Shown here: one piece after another, positions 3,231 through 56,390 of the stretch
Numbering within the stretch: the stretch's first letter is position 1
Layout of the letters: every line of letters begins with the position of its first letter
The notes under the pieces: model-generated
Told to the model about the DNA's origin: nothing
What the model saw: the letters and a program-made list of their open reading frames with translations, nothing else
Databases searched by the model: none
Source: Pseudomonadota bacterium
Lineage (GTDB): Bacteria; Pseudomonadota; Alphaproteobacteria; SP197
Length of the DNA stretch: 64,000 bases
Assembly: GCA_039028155.1 (NCBI GenBank)
Contig: JBCCIS010000010.1
Coordinates: 62,001 to 126,000 of the forward strand
Direction: 5' to 3'
Translations under genes and position numbers: made by a program

Positions 3231-3989
3231 ATGACCGAGCACGCCACATTTCTCGATCGCGTTCGCTGGACCGGCAGGTTGGCGCTCGACACCGTGCTGC
3301 CGCCCCGCTGCCTTGCCTGCGGCGAGATCGTCGACCAACAGGGCCAGGTTTGCGCGACCTGCTGGCCTGTCCTCGACTTTATCGCTCGGCCGTACTGCAC
3401 GGTCTGCGGTACGCCGTTCGCCTATGACATGGGTGAAGATGCCGTTTGCGGCAGTTGTTCCGCCGAGGCGCCGGCATTCGATCGTGGCCGGGCGGCGCTC
3501 GTCTACAATGATCTTGCCGGCCGCTTGATCGTCGGTTTCAAACACGCCGACAGGACACTCCATGCGCCGGTCTTTGCGCGCTGGCTTGCAGTGGCCGGTG
3601 CAGATCTCTTGGGCGATGCGAACCTGGTGACCGCGGTGCCGTTGCACCGCCATCGCCTTTGGCGGCGACGTTTCAATCAATCCGTCATGATGGCGCACGC
3701 TCTAGCTTCGAAGACGGAAGCTCGGGTCGTGCCGGACCTTCTCGTACGGAACCGGCGGACGCCGAGTCAGAGCGGGCGCACGCGCCTGCAGCGGTTCGAG
3801 AACGTACGCGGTGCATTCGCTGTCAAACCGTCTCTCGCCAGTGCGGTAACCGGTCAGCGGATTATCGTTGTGGATGACGTCTTTACCACTGGCGCCACGC
3901 TGAGTGCCGTGGCGCGCTGCTTGAAGCAGGCCGGGGCGGCTCACGTCGATGTGTTAACCCTTGCACGGGTCGTGCGCCACCCTACCTAA
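3231..3989 (+). CDS. comF: ComF family phosphoribosyltransferase-like protein
   Basis: This 252-residue ComF/GntX-type protein has an N-terminal double zinc-ribbon-like Cys cluster (CLACGEIVDQQGQVCATCW, then YCTVCG and VCGSCS). A type I phosphoribosyltransferase domain follows with the PRPP-binding loop IIVVDDVFTTGATL. Upstream of that is the LHRHRLWRRRFNQS segment conserved in the family. ComF is linked to DNA uptake in competent bacteria; in most proteobacteria its role is undefined. The start is the ATG at 3231. It heads a probable run with grxC and the amidase, although 145 bp with a strong hairpin separate it from grxC. Confidence 0.88.
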   Translation: MTEHATFLDRVRWTGRLALDTVLPPRCLACGEIVDQQGQVCATCWPVLDFIARPYCTVCGTPFAYDMGEDAVCGSCSAEAPAFDRGRAALVYNDLAGRLIVGFKHADRTLHAPVFARWLAVAGADLLGDANLVTAVPLHRHRLWRRRFNQSVMMAHALASKTEARVVPDLLVRNRRTPSQSGRTRLQRFENVRGAFAVKPSLASAVTGQRIIVVDDVFTTGATLSAVARCLKQAGAAHVDVLTLARVVRHPT

Positions 3990-4049
3990 AGTCCGATCGA
4001 GCCGCATCGATCCGATGTGGGTCGTGAATCGGCCTCTACTGATAGAGGG

Positions 4050-4093
4050 GAGCAAGAATCACACATTGGATCGAATCCAATGCGATCTTGCTC
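4050..4093 (+). promoter_or_regulatory. Nested hairpin in the grxC leader
   Basis: A 19-bp perfect palindrome (CATTGGATCGAATCCAATG, 4064-4082) is nested inside an outer 8-bp inverted repeat (GAGCAAGA at 4050 with TCTTGCTC at 4086). The structure ends about 40 nt before the grxC start. No T-run follows, so it is not an obvious intrinsic terminator. It could be a comF 3' processing stem, a protein-binding dyad or an mRNA leader element. Confidence 0.4.
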
Positions 4094-4134
4094 AGACGTG
4101 CTAGATTGTGCGGAGACTTGGAGAAGACCGTCCG

Positions 4135-11791: not shown

Positions 11792-13828
11792 ATGCTCGGT
11801 AGACTGACGATCGATGCGTTGCCGTTCTATAGCTGGATCGCCATGGGCGGTGCGGGCGTCACGGTCCTGGGCGGTGTCGTCATCTTCGTTCTGCTGACTT
11901 GGTTCAAGAAGTGGGGCTACTTCTGGAGCGAGTGGCTGACCAGCCTCGATCACAAGCGTATCGGCGTCATGTACATCGCGCTTGCGCTTCTGATGCTGGT
12001 ACGCGGTTTTGTCGATGCCCTGATGATGCGCAGCCAGCAGGCCTTCGCCTACGATTCCGGTGGTTACCTGCCGGCTGGCCATTTCGATCAGGTGTTCAGT
12101 TCTCACGGCACGATCATGATCTTTTTCATGGCCATGCCGTTCATGACGGGGCTTTTCAACCTGATCGTGCCGCAGCAGATCGGCACGCGTGACGTCGCCT
12201 TTCCGTTCATGAACTCTCTCAGCCTGTGGTTCACCTCATCGGGTGCGGGCCTGGTGCTGGTGTCCCTGGTGATCGGCAAGTTTTCGACCGCCGGCTGGAC
12301 CGGTTACCCGCCCTATTCGGGGCTTGAGTATTCGCCTGGCGTCGGCGTCGATTACTGGTTGTGGGCTGTGTTGATAAGCGGGATCGGCTCAACGCTGACC
12401 GGTATCAACTTCATTGTCACGATCCTCAAACGACGAGCGCCGGGCATGACGCTGTTGCGCATGCCGCTCTTCACCTGGACCGTTCTGGTCAGCAGCGTGC
12501 TCATGGCGTTTGCATTTCCCGCCTTGACCGTCGCCACCGGCCTACTCGCTCTTGACCGCTACCTCGATATGCACTTCTTCACGAATGCCGATGGCGGCAA
12601 CATGATGAATTTCATCAGCCTGCTATGGATCTGGGGCCATCCCGAGGTCTACATCCTGATCCTGCCGGCCTTTGGTGTGTTCTCGGAAGTCGTCGCGACG
12701 TTCTCGCGCAAGGCTCTGTTCGGCTATAAATCGCTGGTCTTCGCGACGGCCGCGATCGGCATTCTCTCGTTTTCAGTCTGGCTGCACCACTTCTTCACGA
12801 TGGGTGCGGGCGCCAATGTCAACGCGATATTCGGCATCGCCACAATGATCATCGGCGTGCCGACGGGCGTGAAGGTGTTCGACTGGCTGTTCACCATGTA
12901 TCGCGGGCGCATCACGTTCGATCCGACGATGTACTGGACGATCGGCTTCATCGTGACCTTCGTCATCGGCGGCGTTACCGGCGTGTTGCTCGCCATCCCG
13001 CCCGTCGACTATTTGATGCACAACACGACCTTCCTGGTCGCCCACTTCCACAACATGATCATTCCCGGCGTGCTGTTCGGTTATGTCGCTGGCCTGATCT
13101 ACTGGTTCCCCAAGGCGATCGGGTTCCAACTCAGCGCCAAGTGGGGCATTCGTGCCTTCTGGTGCTGGATCATCGGTTTCTACCTTGCCTTCATGCCGCT
13201 CTACTTCCTGGGCCTGCTCGGCATGCCGCGGCGCATGGAGCGTTATGAGATCGCTGCGTGGCAGCCTTACCTGATCATTGCCGCCATCGGTGCCGCGGTC
13301 ATTCTGGCCGGTGTCGTCTGCATGGCGATGCAGTTGCTGGTCGGTATCAAAGAGCGTGAGAAAACGCGTGACCTCAGCGGCGATCCCTTCAACGGTCGTA
13401 CGCTGGAATGGCTGACGTCGTCACCGGCCGCGCCTTACAACTTCGCCGTCATACCCAAGGTCGACAGCCTTGACGCCTTCTGGAAGATGAAGGTGGACGG
13501 TACCGCGTATCAGAGACCGTCGGGTTACACCGATATCGTGATGCCGAGAAATTCGAGCCTGGGTGTCATCGCGGGCGCCTTCTCCTTCGTCCTTGGCTTC
13601 GCCATGATCTGGTACATCTGGTGGCTGGCGGCCCTCAGTCTGCTGGTGATCGGCATCGTGGTCGTGGTGCGCAGCAGCATGGAAAACACGGACTACGTCA
13701 TCACCGCCGACGAGGTCGCCGCGATCGAGGAGCAACGCTTCAACGATCTCGCGCGTGTGCCGCGCCACGACACGGGCGACCCCGCGGCAAGTCCGCAGGC
13801 CGCGCCGGCGCCGGGGAGTGCATCATGA
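11792..13828 (+). CDS. cyoB: Cytochrome bo3-type ubiquinol oxidase subunit I
   Basis: This 678-residue haem-copper oxidase catalytic subunit shows all expected ligands. The low-spin haem His is in FSSHGTIMIFF, the CuB His and cross-linked Tyr in WGHPEVYILILP, the CuB His pair in WLHHFF, and the high-spin/low-spin haem His pair in LVAHFHNMI. It reduces O2 to water and pumps protons. The length and the extra N- and C-terminal helices fit the quinol oxidase (CyoB/QoxB) type. It overlaps cyoC by 4 bp. Confidence 0.96.
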   Translation: MLGRLTIDALPFYSWIAMGGAGVTVLGGVVIFVLLTWFKKWGYFWSEWLTSLDHKRIGVMYIALALLMLVRGFVDALMMRSQQAFAYDSGGYLPAGHFDQVFSSHGTIMIFFMAMPFMTGLFNLIVPQQIGTRDVAFPFMNSLSLWFTSSGAGLVLVSLVIGKFSTAGWTGYPPYSGLEYSPGVGVDYWLWAVLISGIGSTLTGINFIVTILKRRAPGMTLLRMPLFTWTVLVSSVLMAFAFPALTVATGLLALDRYLDMHFFTNADGGNMMNFISLLWIWGHPEVYILILPAFGVFSEVVATFSRKALFGYKSLVFATAAIGILSFSVWLHHFFTMGAGANVNAIFGIATMIIGVPTGVKVFDWLFTMYRGRITFDPTMYWTIGFIVTFVIGGVTGVLLAIPPVDYLMHNTTFLVAHFHNMIIPGVLFGYVAGLIYWFPKAIGFQLSAKWGIRAFWCWIIGFYLAFMPLYFLGLLGMPRRMERYEIAAWQPYLIIAAIGAAVILAGVVCMAMQLLVGIKEREKTRDLSGDPFNGRTLEWLTSSPAAPYNFAVIPKVDSLDAFWKMKVDGTAYQRPSGYTDIVMPRNSSLGVIAGAFSFVLGFAMIWYIWWLAALSLLVIGIVVVVRSSMENTDYVITADEVAAIEEQRFNDLARVPRHDTGDPAASPQAAPAPGSAS

Positions 13829-15152: not shown

Positions 15153-16565
15153 TTAGATTGGTGGTCGTTTGTCGGCCCACGGACGATGTTTCTCGATCGC
15201 CGCGCCGATGCGAAGCGTGGTCAGGTCGTCGAACCGATGGCCGACAATCTGCAAGCCGGTCGGCAGACCGTTCCCCGCCCACCCTGACGGTACGGAGAGT
15301 GCCGGGCATTGCGCGATATTGTTGAAGGGCGGCGTCATTTCAGCGCAGAGCATCTTGCCGTCGGCATCTTCGCCCGACATCTCGCCTTCGGTTTTCTCCG
15401 CAGATGGCGCGGGAATGGGCGTGGTCGGGCAGAGTAGGGCATCGTAGCGTTCAAACACGTCGCACAGACTGAGCCACTGCTCGGTGCGGACGAACTCAAG
15501 CCGTTTGAGGGTGATCGCGTCAACTGTCCGCGCATGATCGAACATCTTAACAATGGTTGGATCGAGGTCGTCGCGCCGTTCGTCAAGATGCTGACCGAAG
15601 AACGCCGCCAGATAGACGGTCCAGTACTCATCCCAGGAATCGGAGACCTCTCGGGTCCAGCCCAGATCGACCTCCTCGACCGTGGCGCCAGCGTCGCGCA
15701 AGACGTCGACACAGGCCATCACGTTGGCGGCGACCTCGTTGTCGACCGCATAGAAACCAAGATCCATGTCGAGCGCGATGGTCATCCCGCTGACGTCGCT
15801 GCTGATTGAATCTGGAACGTCGAGGGGCAGGGGGTTGGACATGATGTCACGTTCGAAAGGCCCCTGGGCCGCGGCCAGGAACATGGCGGCATCGTCGATG
15901 GTACGGGCCAGCGGGCCGAAGTGCGAGATGTTGTCGAAAACGGTCGGCAACACGGTCATCGGAATGCGGCCCAGGCTCGGCTTCAGGCCGACAATGCCGC
16001 AGAACGACGCGGGAATACGCACCGAACCTCCCATGTCCGAACCTTCGGCAAACGGCACGCAGCCGGACGCGACGGCGGCGCCGGAGCCGCCCGACGAACC
16101 GCCCGGTGTGCGGGTGGGGTCCCAGGGACTGCGCGTAACGCCCCAAAGGGGGCTGTGCGTGAAGCTGGAATGGGCGAACTCCGGCGTCGTCGTCTTGCCG
16201 ACCATAATCGCGCCGGCGCCGGTCAGGTCCTTGACGATCTGCGCGTCATCATCGGGCACCCAGTCGCGATAGACCTTGCTGCCCATGGTCGTCGTTTTGC
16301 CCTTGGTCGGCGTGAAGTCCTTGATCGCGATGGGAACGCCATGCAGCGGGCCGACAGCGTCGCCGCGCATCACCGCCGCCTCGGCTTCCTTGGCCTTGGC
16401 GACCGCTTCCTCCGGATACACGAAACAGAAGCAGTTGAGGGTCGGGTTGATCTCGCCGATCCGATCCAGGCTGTTTTGGACGATGTCGACCGGCGACATC
16501 TCTTTGGCCCGGATGCGGCGCGCCAACTCCTTGGCTGGCGTGAAACTCAGATCGAGATCGCTCAT
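15153..16565 (-). CDS. Amidase signature family amidase
   Basis: This 470-residue amidase-signature enzyme has the Ser-cisSer-Lys triad: Lys82 (PIAIKDF), Ser157 (PGGSSGGSG) and Ser181 (DMGGSVRIP). The family hydrolyses amide bonds in nitriles-derived amides, peptides or aryl amides, or acts in GatA. With no gatC or gatB nearby and a C-terminus unlike GatA, a catabolic amidase is more likely. It faces the zapE-amidase pair across an intergenic region that carries a composite palindromic repeat. Confidence 0.9.
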   Translation of the reverse strand: MSDLDLSFTPAKELARRIRAKEMSPVDIVQNSLDRIGEINPTLNCFCFVYPEEAVAKAKEAEAAVMRGDAVGPLHGVPIAIKDFTPTKGKTTTMGSKVYRDWVPDDDAQIVKDLTGAGAIMVGKTTTPEFAHSSFTHSPLWGVTRSPWDPTRTPGGSSGGSGAAVASGCVPFAEGSDMGGSVRIPASFCGIVGLKPSLGRIPMTVLPTVFDNISHFGPLARTIDDAAMFLAAAQGPFERDIMSNPLPLDVPDSISSDVSGMTIALDMDLGFYAVDNEVAANVMACVDVLRDAGATVEEVDLGWTREVSDSWDEYWTVYLAAFFGQHLDERRDDLDPTIVKMFDHARTVDAITLKRLEFVRTEQWLSLCDVFERYDALLCPTTPIPAPSAEKTEGEMSGEDADGKMLCAEMTPPFNNIAQCPALSVPSGWAGNGLPTGLQIVGHRFDDLTTLRIGAAIEKHRPWADKRPPI

Positions 16566-16578
16566 CTAATCCTCCCCC

Positions 16579-16716
16579 TAGAGCGGATCGTGTTTAGCTG
16601 GAACCGTTTGACGGTTCCAGCTAAACGCGTGAATCCGCTCTGACTCGGAGAGTAGAGCAGATTCACCAGTCTTGACGGAATCGCGAAGCGATCCCGTCAA
16701 GACAGGATCTGCTCTA
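16579..16716. repeat. 138-bp composite palindromic repeat (copy 1)
   Basis: Two 64-bp palindromes are separated by 10 bp. Element A (16579-16642) starts TAGAGCGGATC and carries a 17-bp stem with a 5-nt loop (TTTGA). Element B (16653-16716) starts TAGAGCAGATTCACC and centres on a GCGAAGC hairpin. Both end in close variants of ATCYGCTCTA. The same composite occurs inverted at 33313-33450. It lies between the divergent amidase and zapE genes. BIME/REP-like; no coding capacity. Confidence 0.85.
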
Positions 16717-16778
16717 ATTGCGGATGGCCGCCGGCTCGGCTAAACCGAGGGCCGGTTTCGTGTTTGTGCAGTGATTTC

Positions 16779-17915
16779 ATGGCAAACGGCCCGTTGCAAG
16801 CCTACCACGCCTTGGTCGAGGGCGGCGATATCAAAGCGGATGGCGCTCAGCTTGCCGCCATGGAGCGGTTCCAGCGACTCTGTGACGATCTCGACGCGAT
16901 GTCGCGTAAGGGGTCGCGCAACGGCAATGGCCGTCTCTTTCGGGCCTTGTTCGGCAGCCGCAACGATGCGCCGGCGCCCAAGGGCGTCTATCTCTATGGT
17001 GATGTTGGCCGCGGCAAGTCCATGTTGATGGATCTTTTCTTTGAAACGGTCGACGTGCCGTCGAAGCGCCGGGTCCACTTCCACGCCTTCATGCAGGAAG
17101 TGCACGGGCTGATCCATGAGCAACGCAATGTCGGCCGTCACGACAACGATCGGGATCTGATCAAAGCCGTTGCCAAGGGTGTCGCCAACGACTCCAGCCT
17201 GCTGTGTTTCGATGAACTGCATGTCACGGACATCGCCGACGCCATGATCCTAGGCCGCCTGTTCAAGAAGCTTTTCGAACGCGGCATCGTCATGGTCGCA
17301 ACATCCAACCGTCCGCCACGCGACCTTTACAAGGGCGGCATAAACCGCGAGCTCTTCGTGCCATTCATCGACATGATCGAAGACCGTTTGGATGTGATTC
17401 ACCTGGAGGCCGAGCAAGACTACCGGCTGGCGTTCCTGCAACAGGCGAACGTCTATTGCACGCCTTTGGGTGAGGAAGCTGACCGCACGCTTGACGATGC
17501 CTTCGATCACCTAGTCGGCGGCGAGGCCCCCCATGCGCTTGATCTGGAAGTCCAGGGCCGGCAGCTTCATGTGCCGCGACAGGCCCGCCACGTCGCGCGG
17601 TTTAGCTTCGAAGAGCTTTGCGACCGACCGTTGGGCGCCGCCGACTACCTTCTGCTGGCCGAGCACTTCCACACGCTGGTCATCGACAACATTCCGCGTA
17701 TGGGCAAAGAGCAGCGAAACCAGGCCAGCCGATTCGTCACCCTGATCGACGTCTTGTACGAAAACCGTGTCAATCTGATCTGCTCGGCTGACGCGCCGCC
17801 TGATGAACTCTACGTTCACGGCGACGGGTCGTTCGAGTTTCAACGTACGGCGTCCCGGCTGATCGAAATGCAGTCCAGTGACTATCTCGCCGAACAGCGG
17901 CCGGAAGCGGCATGA
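16779..17915 (+). CDS. zapE: Cell division protein ZapE (AFG1-like ATPase)
   Basis: This 378-residue AFG1/ZapE-type P-loop ATPase has Walker A GDVGRGKSM near residue 76 and Walker B LLCFDELHV near residue 145. Sensor-like segments include VATSNRPPRDLYKGGINRE. ZapE destabilises FtsZ polymers during division in E. coli; the mitochondrial homologue LACE1/AFG1 acts in protein quality control. The start is the ATG at 16779 rather than the TTG five codons upstream. Its stop overlaps the downstream amidase by 4 bp. Confidence 0.9.
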   Translation: MANGPLQAYHALVEGGDIKADGAQLAAMERFQRLCDDLDAMSRKGSRNGNGRLFRALFGSRNDAPAPKGVYLYGDVGRGKSMLMDLFFETVDVPSKRRVHFHAFMQEVHGLIHEQRNVGRHDNDRDLIKAVAKGVANDSSLLCFDELHVTDIADAMILGRLFKKLFERGIVMVATSNRPPRDLYKGGINRELFVPFIDMIEDRLDVIHLEAEQDYRLAFLQQANVYCTPLGEEADRTLDDAFDHLVGGEAPHALDLEVQGRQLHVPRQARHVARFSFEELCDRPLGAADYLLLAEHFHTLVIDNIPRMGKEQRNQASRFVTLIDVLYENRVNLICSADAPPDELYVHGDGSFEFQRTASRLIEMQSSDYLAEQRPEAA

Positions 17916-24700: not shown

Positions 24701-24798
24701 GGAAGGCTGGCGCGGACGGGCGGCCTCGTGAACCCGGTCAGGTCCGGAAGGAAGCAGCCGTAGCGAGATTCGCGGCCCGGGTCGCTGTCCAGTCTTCC
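24701..24798 (+). ncRNA. ffs: Bacterial small signal recognition particle RNA (4.5S)
   Basis: The conserved SRP domain IV is present: GGTCAGGTCCGGAAGGAAGC followed by AGCC, at about 24737-24759. It sits at the tip of a hairpin whose outer strands are GGAAGGCTGG (5') and CCAGTCTTCC (3'). The size, about 98 nt, is normal for alphaproteobacteria. It binds Ffh and directs membrane protein targeting. Its place directly upstream of dnaX is the usual one in this class. Confidence 0.93.
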
Positions 24799-32114: not shown

Positions 32115-33263
32115 CTAGTTTCCCACGAGCCGGGGGCCGACGACAATGTTGTCGTCATCCTCGGATTCAAGTTCTAGTTCTGCAATGCGACCGACCTTGG
32201 TGGTGATCTTGTCGGTCGACGTGCGGACCTCGCGCACGGTGTTGTAGGCAGTCTCGAAGTTGCGCTGCAGTTTATCCACACGGTCACCCAGGCGGTTGAC
32301 GTCCTGCATCATCTTCATCAGTTCCTGCTGGATCAGGCCGGCCTGTTCGCGCATGCGCGCGTCCTTCAAGACCGAGCGGATGGTGTTAAGGAGCGCCATC
32401 AGTGTCGTCGGTGAGGCGAGGAACACGCGGCAGCGGAAAGATTCCTGGATCACATCGCCAAAACTTGCGTGGATCTCCGCATAGACGGCTTCGCTGGGAA
32501 TAAACATGATGGCCTGATCGGCGGTTTCGCCGACGACGATGTAACGCGCGGCGATGTCCTTGACGTGCTTCAGGACGTCCTGGCGGAACTGGCGCGCCGC
32601 GCGTTCCCGGTCTTCGCGCGTCTCGGCGGCGCGAAGACGCTGATAGCCGTCCAGCGGGAACTTTGAATCGACGCCGATCGAGCCCGGCGGGTTGGGCAGC
32701 ATCAGCAGACAGTCGACCTGGCGGCCGTTCCCCAGCGGTGCCTGAAACGCGTAGTCGTCGGGCGCCATGATGTCGCTGACGATGTCATTCAGCTGGATCT
32801 CGCCATAGGCGCCGCGGCTCTGTTTGTTGGAGAGGATCTGGTTCAGCGTCGCCATGTCGTTGCCTAGATGCTCCATGCGTTTCTGGGCTTCGTCGATGAC
32901 AGCCAGGCGTTTCTCCACCTTGCCCATGGTCTCCAGTGTCTGTTTGGTCGATTCCTGAAGCGAGTTGCCCATGCGCTGCTGGATCGAGTCCAGCCGGTTG
33001 TTGAGCTCCTTGGTCAGCCTCAGCTCCTGCTGGTGCAGCCGCTCGCCTAGTGCCGCCTGGGCCGCCGTGTTGGCTTCCGACAACTGCGCCAGCCGTTCCG
33101 TCAGGCCGGCCTGTCCGGCGGAGACGGTGGCAATGGTCTCGGCCAGATCCCTGGCGGTTGTCTCATTGTTGGAACGGCCGCGCGTGGCCATAAAGACGAC
33201 CCAAGGGATGGCGGCGCCGACCACGATCGCGGCGGCGATGATGACGAGGGTAAGTGTATCCAT
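32115..33263 (-). CDS. rmuC: DNA recombination protein RmuC
   Basis: This 382-residue RmuC-family protein has an N-terminal membrane helix (LVIIAAAIVVGAAIPWVVF), a coiled-coil region to about residue 150, and the conserved nuclease-fold RmuC domain (RGAYGEIQLNDIVSDI, SIGVDSKFPLDGYQRL, MFIPSEAVYAEIH). RmuC limits inversions between short inverted repeats in E. coli. The start is at 33263 with AGGAGGT upstream. The upstream gap carries copy 2 of the 138-bp palindromic repeat. Confidence 0.92.
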   Translation of the reverse strand: MDTLTLVIIAAAIVVGAAIPWVVFMATRGRSNNETTARDLAETIATVSAGQAGLTERLAQLSEANTAAQAALGERLHQQELRLTKELNNRLDSIQQRMGNSLQESTKQTLETMGKVEKRLAVIDEAQKRMEHLGNDMATLNQILSNKQSRGAYGEIQLNDIVSDIMAPDDYAFQAPLGNGRQVDCLLMLPNPPGSIGVDSKFPLDGYQRLRAAETREDRERAARQFRQDVLKHVKDIAARYIVVGETADQAIMFIPSEAVYAEIHASFGDVIQESFRCRVFLASPTTLMALLNTIRSVLKDARMREQAGLIQQELMKMMQDVNRLGDRVDKLQRNFETAYNTVREVRTSTDKITTKVGRIAELELESEDDDNIVVGPRLVGN

Positions 33264-33312: not shown

Positions 33313-33450
33313 TAGAGCAGATCCTGTTTTGATGGAATCGCTTCGCGATTTCGTCAAGGCAGGTGAATCTGCTCTATTTATCGATATAGAGCGGATTCAC
33401 ATGGTTAGTTGGGACCGTCAAGCGGTCCCAACTAACCATGATCCGCTCTA
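33313..33450. repeat. 138-bp composite palindromic repeat (copy 2, inverted)
   Basis: Element B' (33313-33376) and element A' (33387-33450), each 64 bp, are separated by 10 bp. Read on the minus strand it aligns without gaps to 16579-16716. Element A differs at 11 of 64 positions and B at 6 of 64. In A, eight of the 11 changes form four compensatory pairs in the stem and a ninth converts a T-G wobble to T-A. It lies between the divergent rmuC and def genes. Confidence 0.87.
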
Positions 33451-33519
33451 GACACCGGGGGCCGGCAGTATAGTCCGCCGGCCGCGAAGGTGCGATAAAT
33501 CAACAGGTTGACCACGTTC

Positions 33520-34044
33520 ATGGCCCTTTTGCCCATCATCGTAGCGCCGGATCCCCGGCTCAAGGTTGTCTCCAAGCCAGTCGAAACCATCGACGACGGC
33601 GTGCGTACGCTGATGGATGACATGCTGGAGACCATGTACGACGAACCGGGCATCGGGCTCTCGGCGATCCAAATTGGCGTGCCTAAGCGCATCGTCGTTG
33701 TCGATGTCGCCGGCCAGGACGACGAGCCTGCCCCGTTGCGCATGGTCAACCCAGAGATCGTCTGGCACTCCGAGGACAAGGCGGTCTTCGAGGAAGGCTG
33801 CCTGTCTCTTCCCGATCACTATGCCGAGGTTACCCGCCCGGCATCGATCAGACTGCGCTATCTCGACGATAACGCGAGAGAGCAGGAGCTTGATGCCGAC
33901 GAGATCCTGTCGCGCTGCATTCAGCACGAGATGGACCACCTGGACGGCATTTTGTTTGTCGACCATCTGACTGCGGTCAAGCGAAGCATCATTCTGCGCA
34001 AGCTTACCAAGTTGAAGAAGTCGAAGCTCAGGGAGTCGGCCTGA
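33520..34044 (+). CDS. def: Peptide deformylase
   Basis: This 175-residue PDF removes the N-formyl group from nascent peptides. All three motifs are intact: GIGLSAIQIG (residues 44-53), EEGCLSLP with Cys94 as metal ligand, and QHEMDHLDG with His136, His140 and catalytic Glu137. The start is the ATG at 33520; a TTG at 33508 is in frame but adds only four residues. First of def-fmt-truA. Confidence 0.95.
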   Translation: MALLPIIVAPDPRLKVVSKPVETIDDGVRTLMDDMLETMYDEPGIGLSAIQIGVPKRIVVVDVAGQDDEPAPLRMVNPEIVWHSEDKAVFEEGCLSLPDHYAEVTRPASIRLRYLDDNAREQELDADEILSRCIQHEMDHLDGILFVDHLTAVKRSIILRKLTKLKKSKLRESA

Positions 34045-56313: not shown

Positions 56314-56390
56314 GCACCCCTAGCTCAACTGGATAGAGCACCTGACTACGGATCAGGAGGTTGGGGGTTCGAATCCTCCGGGGTGCGCCA
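56314..56390 (+). tRNA. tRNA-Arg (anticodon ACG)
   Basis: A full cloverleaf is present. Acceptor strands GCACCCC (56314-56320) and GGGGTGC (56380-56386) pair; the anticodon stem CCTGA/TCAGG has loop CTACGGA (anticodon ACG, reading CGU and, if A34 is modified, CGC/CGA); the T-arm loop is TTCGAAT. The 3' CCA is encoded. A T-run (TTTTT) follows immediately. It lies alone between genes of opposite orientation. Confidence 0.95.

Follow-up and report, generated by a model that had tools for sequence, protein, structure and literature searches.

A 138-bp two-hairpin repeat of Alphaproteobacteria as a probable MITE-like mobile element

The CcrM-associated intergenic repeats (CIR) of Caulobacter, Brucella, and other Alphaproteobacteria were reportedly described by Chen and Shapiro in 2003. 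A CIR consists of two inverted-repeat arms and a linker, is ~110 bp long, has TA termini, and carries a conserved GANTC, which lies at the loop of one hairpin (PMC2229807); how repeats of this type move, and why they contain GANTC, were still open questions in a 2007 review. IS711, which causes a TA duplication at YTAR, favors the Bru-RS repeats of Brucella as a site, and, going by a reference title cited in PMC2170065, IS630 prefers CTAG. REP sequences, in turn, are defined as carrying a tag, GTAG or CGTC, at one of their ends (PMC3733652). Here, we describe a composite palindromic repeat from a 64,000-nucleotide stretch of DNA (the window) belonging to an alphaproteobacterial genome of 5.31 Mb in 118 contigs (G000, the host genome), which was analyzed together with a congener (G001); both assemblies are fragmented MAGs. 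We consider it probable (roughly 0.8) that this composite represents a non-autonomous mobile repeat resembling MITEs, in which two palindromes and a short linker move as a 138-bp unit.

The composites and their relatives

As shown in Table 1, the window contains two composites in opposite orientations, each built from a 64-bp hairpin A, a 10-bp linker, and a 64-bp hairpin B. The preliminary description of this DNA had located both, and its coordinates and orientations were confirmed to the base; it counted only these two copies, both of which are real, and missed a decayed third one, the better-preserved hairpin of which still has GANTC (GAATC) on the inner arm versus GATC on the outer arm. 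When the two intact copies are aligned without gaps, they differ at 11 positions in A, 6 in the linker, and 6 in B. Our recount of the changes in the hairpins agrees with the earlier one: in A, the pairs 12-50, 15-47, 20-42, and 24-38 have changed on both sides with pairing kept, and at position 49 a T-G pair has become T-A, and none of the six changes in B is compensated. All four hairpins of these two copies fold far better than shuffled sequences. An Rfam search of the window returned no family matching the composites; the same search placed a bacterial small SRP RNA at 24704-24798 and a tRNA gene at 56314-56387.

Table 1. Features of the composites and the genes that flank them in the window.
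Feature	Position	Strand	Remarks
Composite copy 1 (A-linker-B, 138 bp)	16579..16716	+	TA at both ends (16579-16580, 16715-16716), the insertion target
Hairpin A, copy 1	16579..16642	+	outer arm TAGAGCGGATC; inner arm GTGAATCCGCTCT with 3-nt bulge; fold -48.1 kcal/mol, z -11.5
GAATC (GANTC), inner arm of A, copy 1	16631..16635	+	read from sequence
Variable linker, copy 1	16643..16652	+	6 of 10 positions differ from copy 2
Hairpin B, copy 1	16653..16716	+	inner arm AGAGCAGATTCAC; conserved tip ATCGCGAAGCGAT; outer arm GATCTGCTCTA; fold -40.2 kcal/mol, z -11.1
GATTC (GANTC), inner arm of B, copy 1	16660..16664	+	read from sequence
Composite copy 2 (138 bp)	33313..33450	-	inverted relative to copy 1
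Hairpin A, copy 2	33387..33450	-	GAATC at 33394-33398; fold -48.9 kcal/mol, z -10.3
Linker, copy 2	33377..33386	-	read from sequence
Hairpin B, copy 2	33313..33376	-	GATTC at 33365-33369; fold -28.4 kcal/mol, z -6.5
Third copy, decayed and divergent, different stems	3987..4094 (about)	-	R1 covariance model 37.2 bits, E 1.1e-6
Amidase gene, left of copy 1	15153..16565	-	PF01425, E 8e-107
AFG1/ZapE-type ATPase gene, right of copy 1	16764..17915	+	PF03969, E 6e-119
rmuC, left of copy 2	32115..33263	-	PF02646, E 7e-64
def (peptide deformylase), right of copy 2	33508..34044	+	PF01327, E 3e-52

A BLAST search of the host genome found the repeat at 40 places with an E value of 1e-20 or better, and a covariance model based on 30 copies (R1) gave 147 matches at 0.01 or better; as palindromes match on both strands, merging left at least ~70 clear places, plus fragments. 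By the same model, the congener carries a similar load, 11 of 15 other genomes of the host family have matches, and none was found in 25 genomes from other families of the class. Exact matches to the core GTGAATCNGCTCT-linker-AGAGCNGATTCAC are also present in Aquibaculum arenosum, Pelagibius, and Kiloniellaceae MAGs. Plasmid records contained no match to three members of the repeat family, and a stretch of Sinorhizobium meliloti pSymA contained no TAGAGC hairpins. Deletion derivatives were seen at L185 (~12660-12720), L203 (5057-5152), L211 (4994-5089), and L210 (4948-5054), in the form of a chimeric hairpin of two outer arms only and of hairpins with a lost interior, which are typical of slippage across hairpins.

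Insertion sites and gene context

The flanks of copies in the congener were sought in the analyzed part of the host genome and counted only where they fell in contiguous, unselected sequence (n = 21). Orthologous flanks are mostly 85-95% identical, and the orthologous sites were empty in 16 cases, filled in 4, and partial in 1. The junctions of empty sites are mostly precise, with 2 bp left between the flanks, and these are TA in ~9 clear cases (for example, L058/L014, L070/L187, L020/L154, and L014/L229); a few empty sites have other dinucleotides (TG, AT, and CG), and some junctions are messy. TA was present at the left end of 93 of 137 copies, versus 112 at the right end. Both ends are TA in 76 copies, of which 64 sit in YTAR and 27 in CTAG, contexts that account for 10.9% and 3.2% of all TAs, respectively. 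The YTAR bias persists for copies away from stop codons (30/38, p 3e-22) and is stronger in other genera, where the left base is C in 45 of 54 cases and the right base is G in 48 of 53. Presence or absence alone would fit either insertion or precise loss, but, because of this target bias, insertion is the simpler reading and the one we favor. Overall, the copies combine the high number and the presence or absence at orthologous sites that characterize MITEs with precise junctions, TA at both ends where a site is filled and mostly TA where it is empty, the TA insertion preferring CTAG of MITEs mobilized by IS630, and a YTAR (mostly CTAG) target, as for IS711-like elements.

We noted that the copies avoid gene interiors and that they are inserted into stop codons. 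Where a gene end faces an element, it overlaps the element by exactly 3 bp in 49 of 110 cases, the terminal TAG being the stop codon, and comparison of L014 with L058 shows that, in the empty site, the same gene has its TAG stop codon exactly at the insertion point. This indicates that, when an element inserts into the TA of a stop codon, a stop is restored.

Both intact window copies lie between divergent genes, amidase/zapE and rmuC/def, as first described; Pfam matches and gene directions agree on this. Such a position would suit a regulatory element that has a defined structure, as RNA or as DNA, and is maintained at promoters by selection, and so would the covariation of 26 pairs reported below and the conservation of copy 1, which is present at the orthologous site of the congener (L124/L242) with 135 of 138 positions identical. 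A bias toward divergent promoters did not emerge when 129 near-full copies were placed in context with a simple codon-usage gene finder written for this analysis, over ~2.2 Mb of the host genome (which includes the flanks of found copies) and the congener loci around copies. There, 68 copies are in tandem, 37 in divergent, and 24 in convergent gaps, compared with 111, 56, and 20, respectively, among 187 background gaps of at least 60 bp. The divergent share thus does not differ (37/129 versus 56/187, Fisher p 0.9); convergent gaps are slightly enriched for copies (24/129 versus 20/187, p 0.05), and the tandem copies show no orientation bias, with 34 of 68 on the gene strand. Further, most orthologous sites have no copy, no Rfam family matches the element, and orthologous copies diverge roughly like their flanks, mostly by uncompensated changes. 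A regulatory element at promoters is therefore an unsupported reading, which we regard as highly improbable.

Pairing of the arms and the GANTC bulge

In an alignment of 30 copies, 90% of cells pair, compared with 32-38% in slid controls, and 26 pairs change on both sides, compared with 10.3 in shuffles. The covariation seen between the two window copies is thus real, but its initial interpretation as selection on structure is not borne out at these sites. In orthologous copies, 42 stem changes are one-sided and 8 are two-sided, and 5 of the latter preserve the pair and lie in adjacent clusters. Further, whole arms have been made symmetric in five congener copies, in both directions: in L247, L246, and L329 (hairpin A) and L243 (hairpin B), the inner bulge has disappeared and the inner arm is now an exact match to the outer one, and L117 (hairpin B) has gained the bulge on the outer arm. 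The host-genome orthologue of L329 still has the bulge. This rewriting points to arm-to-arm templating. Because changes in orthologues are mostly one-sided and whole arms are rewritten from the opposite arm, we conclude that the symmetry of the palindromes is a property of the mobile lineage or a result of arm-to-arm correction. At L032 (1501-1638, contig C52 of the host genome), hairpin B has an inverted tip, GTCGCTTCGCGAT replacing ATCGCGAAGCGAT, which is what strand switching within a palindrome would produce.

Selection at the level of RNA was also considered and rejected. Mismatches of the G-T and A-C types are about equally frequent in hairpin A (53 versus 46), that is, there is no G-U excess, and this, together with the even split of tandem copies between strands, implies that neither strand is marked as a functional RNA. 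We suggest that the stems vary yet stay paired because the hairpin arms may be copied onto each other, through strand switching in replication or through cruciform intermediates; selection for hairpin recognition during mobilization would perhaps help to keep the pairing, and each copy would not be a regulatory RNA. A repeat may show strong compensatory changes that do not reflect selection for an RNA structure.

The two hairpins are alike in their asymmetry: the outer arm reads GAGCRGATC, and the inner arm reads GTGAATCYGCTC, the 3-nt bulge of which makes GANTC. Among 137 near-full copies, GANTC is found on the inner arm of A in 124 and of B in 113, as opposed to 1 and 3, respectively, on the outer arms. 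Pair 9-56 reveals a sequence constraint on the inner arm, as the outer A has become G in 15 of 90 cases with the inner T unchanged. The same inner/outer asymmetry recurs with unrelated stems in other families (genomes G366, G289, G093, G162, and G043), and in G093 it takes the full two-hairpin form, in a 115-bp composite (L412). Hairpin families with TAGAGC...GCTCTA ends and no GANTC bulge were also observed, in several copies each, in G359, G137, G200, and G293.

This placement of GANTC and its recurrence on unrelated stems would be expected of a CcrM-linked element as proposed for CIR, in which mobility or local DNA structure is controlled by whether GANTC is methylated (it is hemimethylated after replication); consistent with this, GANTC is the most under-represented of 16 such motifs relative to Markov expectation (0.70). 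On the other hand, RAMA, the C-terminal domain of CcrM, was detected in the Caulobacter control and in 34 of 61 genomes, but in 0 of 16 genomes of the host family, one of them a two-contig, 100% complete assembly, although a divergent CcrM with no recognizable RAMA is possible there. Further, two CcrM protein queries had no match in the ~41% of the host genome that was searched, and L243, L246, L247, and L329 have each lost one GANTC. Control by CcrM is thus a possible but not a favored explanation, and methylation as the reason for GANTC in the host family is doubtful. Most other alphaproteobacterial families sampled have a RAMA-domain CcrM, which the host family apparently does not.

Because the code persists in a family in which no RAMA-type CcrM was found, the bulge can instead be read as a structural mark. 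We tentatively propose that many alphaproteobacterial families share one code, with TAGAGC-N-GATC on the outer arm and GTGAATC-N-GCTCT on the inner arm of unrelated stems, often in mirror-image pairs, in which the 3-nt inner bulge would make GANTC only incidentally and would serve as a structural mark recognized by a novel mobilizing enzyme, and the stems would drift as arm-to-arm copying keeps them paired.

Mobilization and comparison with known repeats

For the MITE-like repeat, mobilization would depend on a transposase supplied in trans, either of the IS630/Tc1-mariner type or TA-duplicating like that of Brucella IS711, which would recognize the conserved TAGAGC(R)GATC ends and duplicate TA. 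Searches for IS630-type (DDE_3) and Y1 transposases and for longer elements with the same ends, made in the host genome and the congener, both of them fragmented MAGs, and in relatives, did not find a mobilizing enzyme. DDE_3 (IS630) is absent from the host genome and the congener, assemblies fragmented enough for an IS to be missing, and none of the IS630 copies of relatives with locatable ends ends in TAGAGC. IS630 as a resident helper was rejected on these grounds and because its occurrence does not correlate with copy number in the host family. The 3.4 Mb examined contained no longer element with TAGAGC ends; in the best candidates, ordinary genes turned out to lie between two separate repeats (e.g. 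L323).

With their bulge, variable paired stems, and fixed ends, the hairpins resemble the substrates of HUH enzymes (Y1, REP/RAYT-like), and an enzyme of this kind, reading single-stranded hairpins, could insert GAGC...GCTCTA 3' of (C)TA with no duplication, the conserved bulge being its recognition feature. Two copies would fit such a mechanism: in L246 (empty-site TG) and L041 (AT), the dinucleotide is found at the left end only and is not repeated by the right element end, so target duplication is not proven in all copies. However, Y1_Tnp (RAYT) is absent from the host genome, the congener, and every other carrier of the family except G004, in a search with a positive control, and G004, the sole carrier with a Y1 transposase, has only two weak element matches. 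Further, the base to the right of the target TA is G or A in ~88% of copies, which better suits a double-stranded CTAG target. We therefore consider an HUH enzyme unlikely. A REP/BIME element with its RAYT was rejected for the same want of Y1_Tnp, and the GTAG or CGTC end tag was not seen either, the ends being TAGAGC and the left flank mostly C. Of the original suggestion of a BIME-like mobile repeat, mobility stands, given at least ~70 copies and the empty sites; the assignment to BIME/REP does not, given the near absence of RAYT and the precise insertion at TA, which is not a REP trait.

Compared with REP/BIME, the composite likewise has paired palindromic units between genes in high copy number, but its carriers lack RAYT (bar G004), and it has no outer GTAG tag, inserts at TA, and forms much longer hairpins. 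It resembles the TA-inserting MITEs (Correia/NEMIS, RUP, and ERIC) and IS630/Tc1-mariner elements in its foldback structure, TA termini, TA insertion, and size (~100-155 bp), and differs from such MITEs in having two hairpins and a linker rather than one terminal inverted repeat and in that a partner IS was not found. By description, it is also like Bru-RS1/2 of Brucella (103-105 bp) and RIME of Rhizobium, which are intergenic alphaproteobacterial palindromes of MITE size. With CIR, likened by description (PMC2229807) and not by sequence, it shares two arms and a linker, GANTC, intergenic position, high copy number, TA termini, and occurrence in Alphaproteobacteria. Unlike CIR, it is 138 bp rather than ~110 bp long, has GANTC in an inner-arm stem bulge of both hairpins rather than at the loop of one, and resides in a host family in which RAMA-type CcrM was not found; further, its target and empty sites are documented here, whereas the review left duplication by CIR open. 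With clean YTAR empty sites, two-way rewriting of arms, and a host family apparently lacking CcrM, both questions about CIR, how they move and why they carry GANTC, become directly testable. Overall, mobile intergenic palindromes are ordinary objects, and the composite is one of them in an uncommon and well-resolved form; it is best filed near the CIR, Bru-RS, and RIME palindromes of Alphaproteobacteria rather than with REP/BIME.
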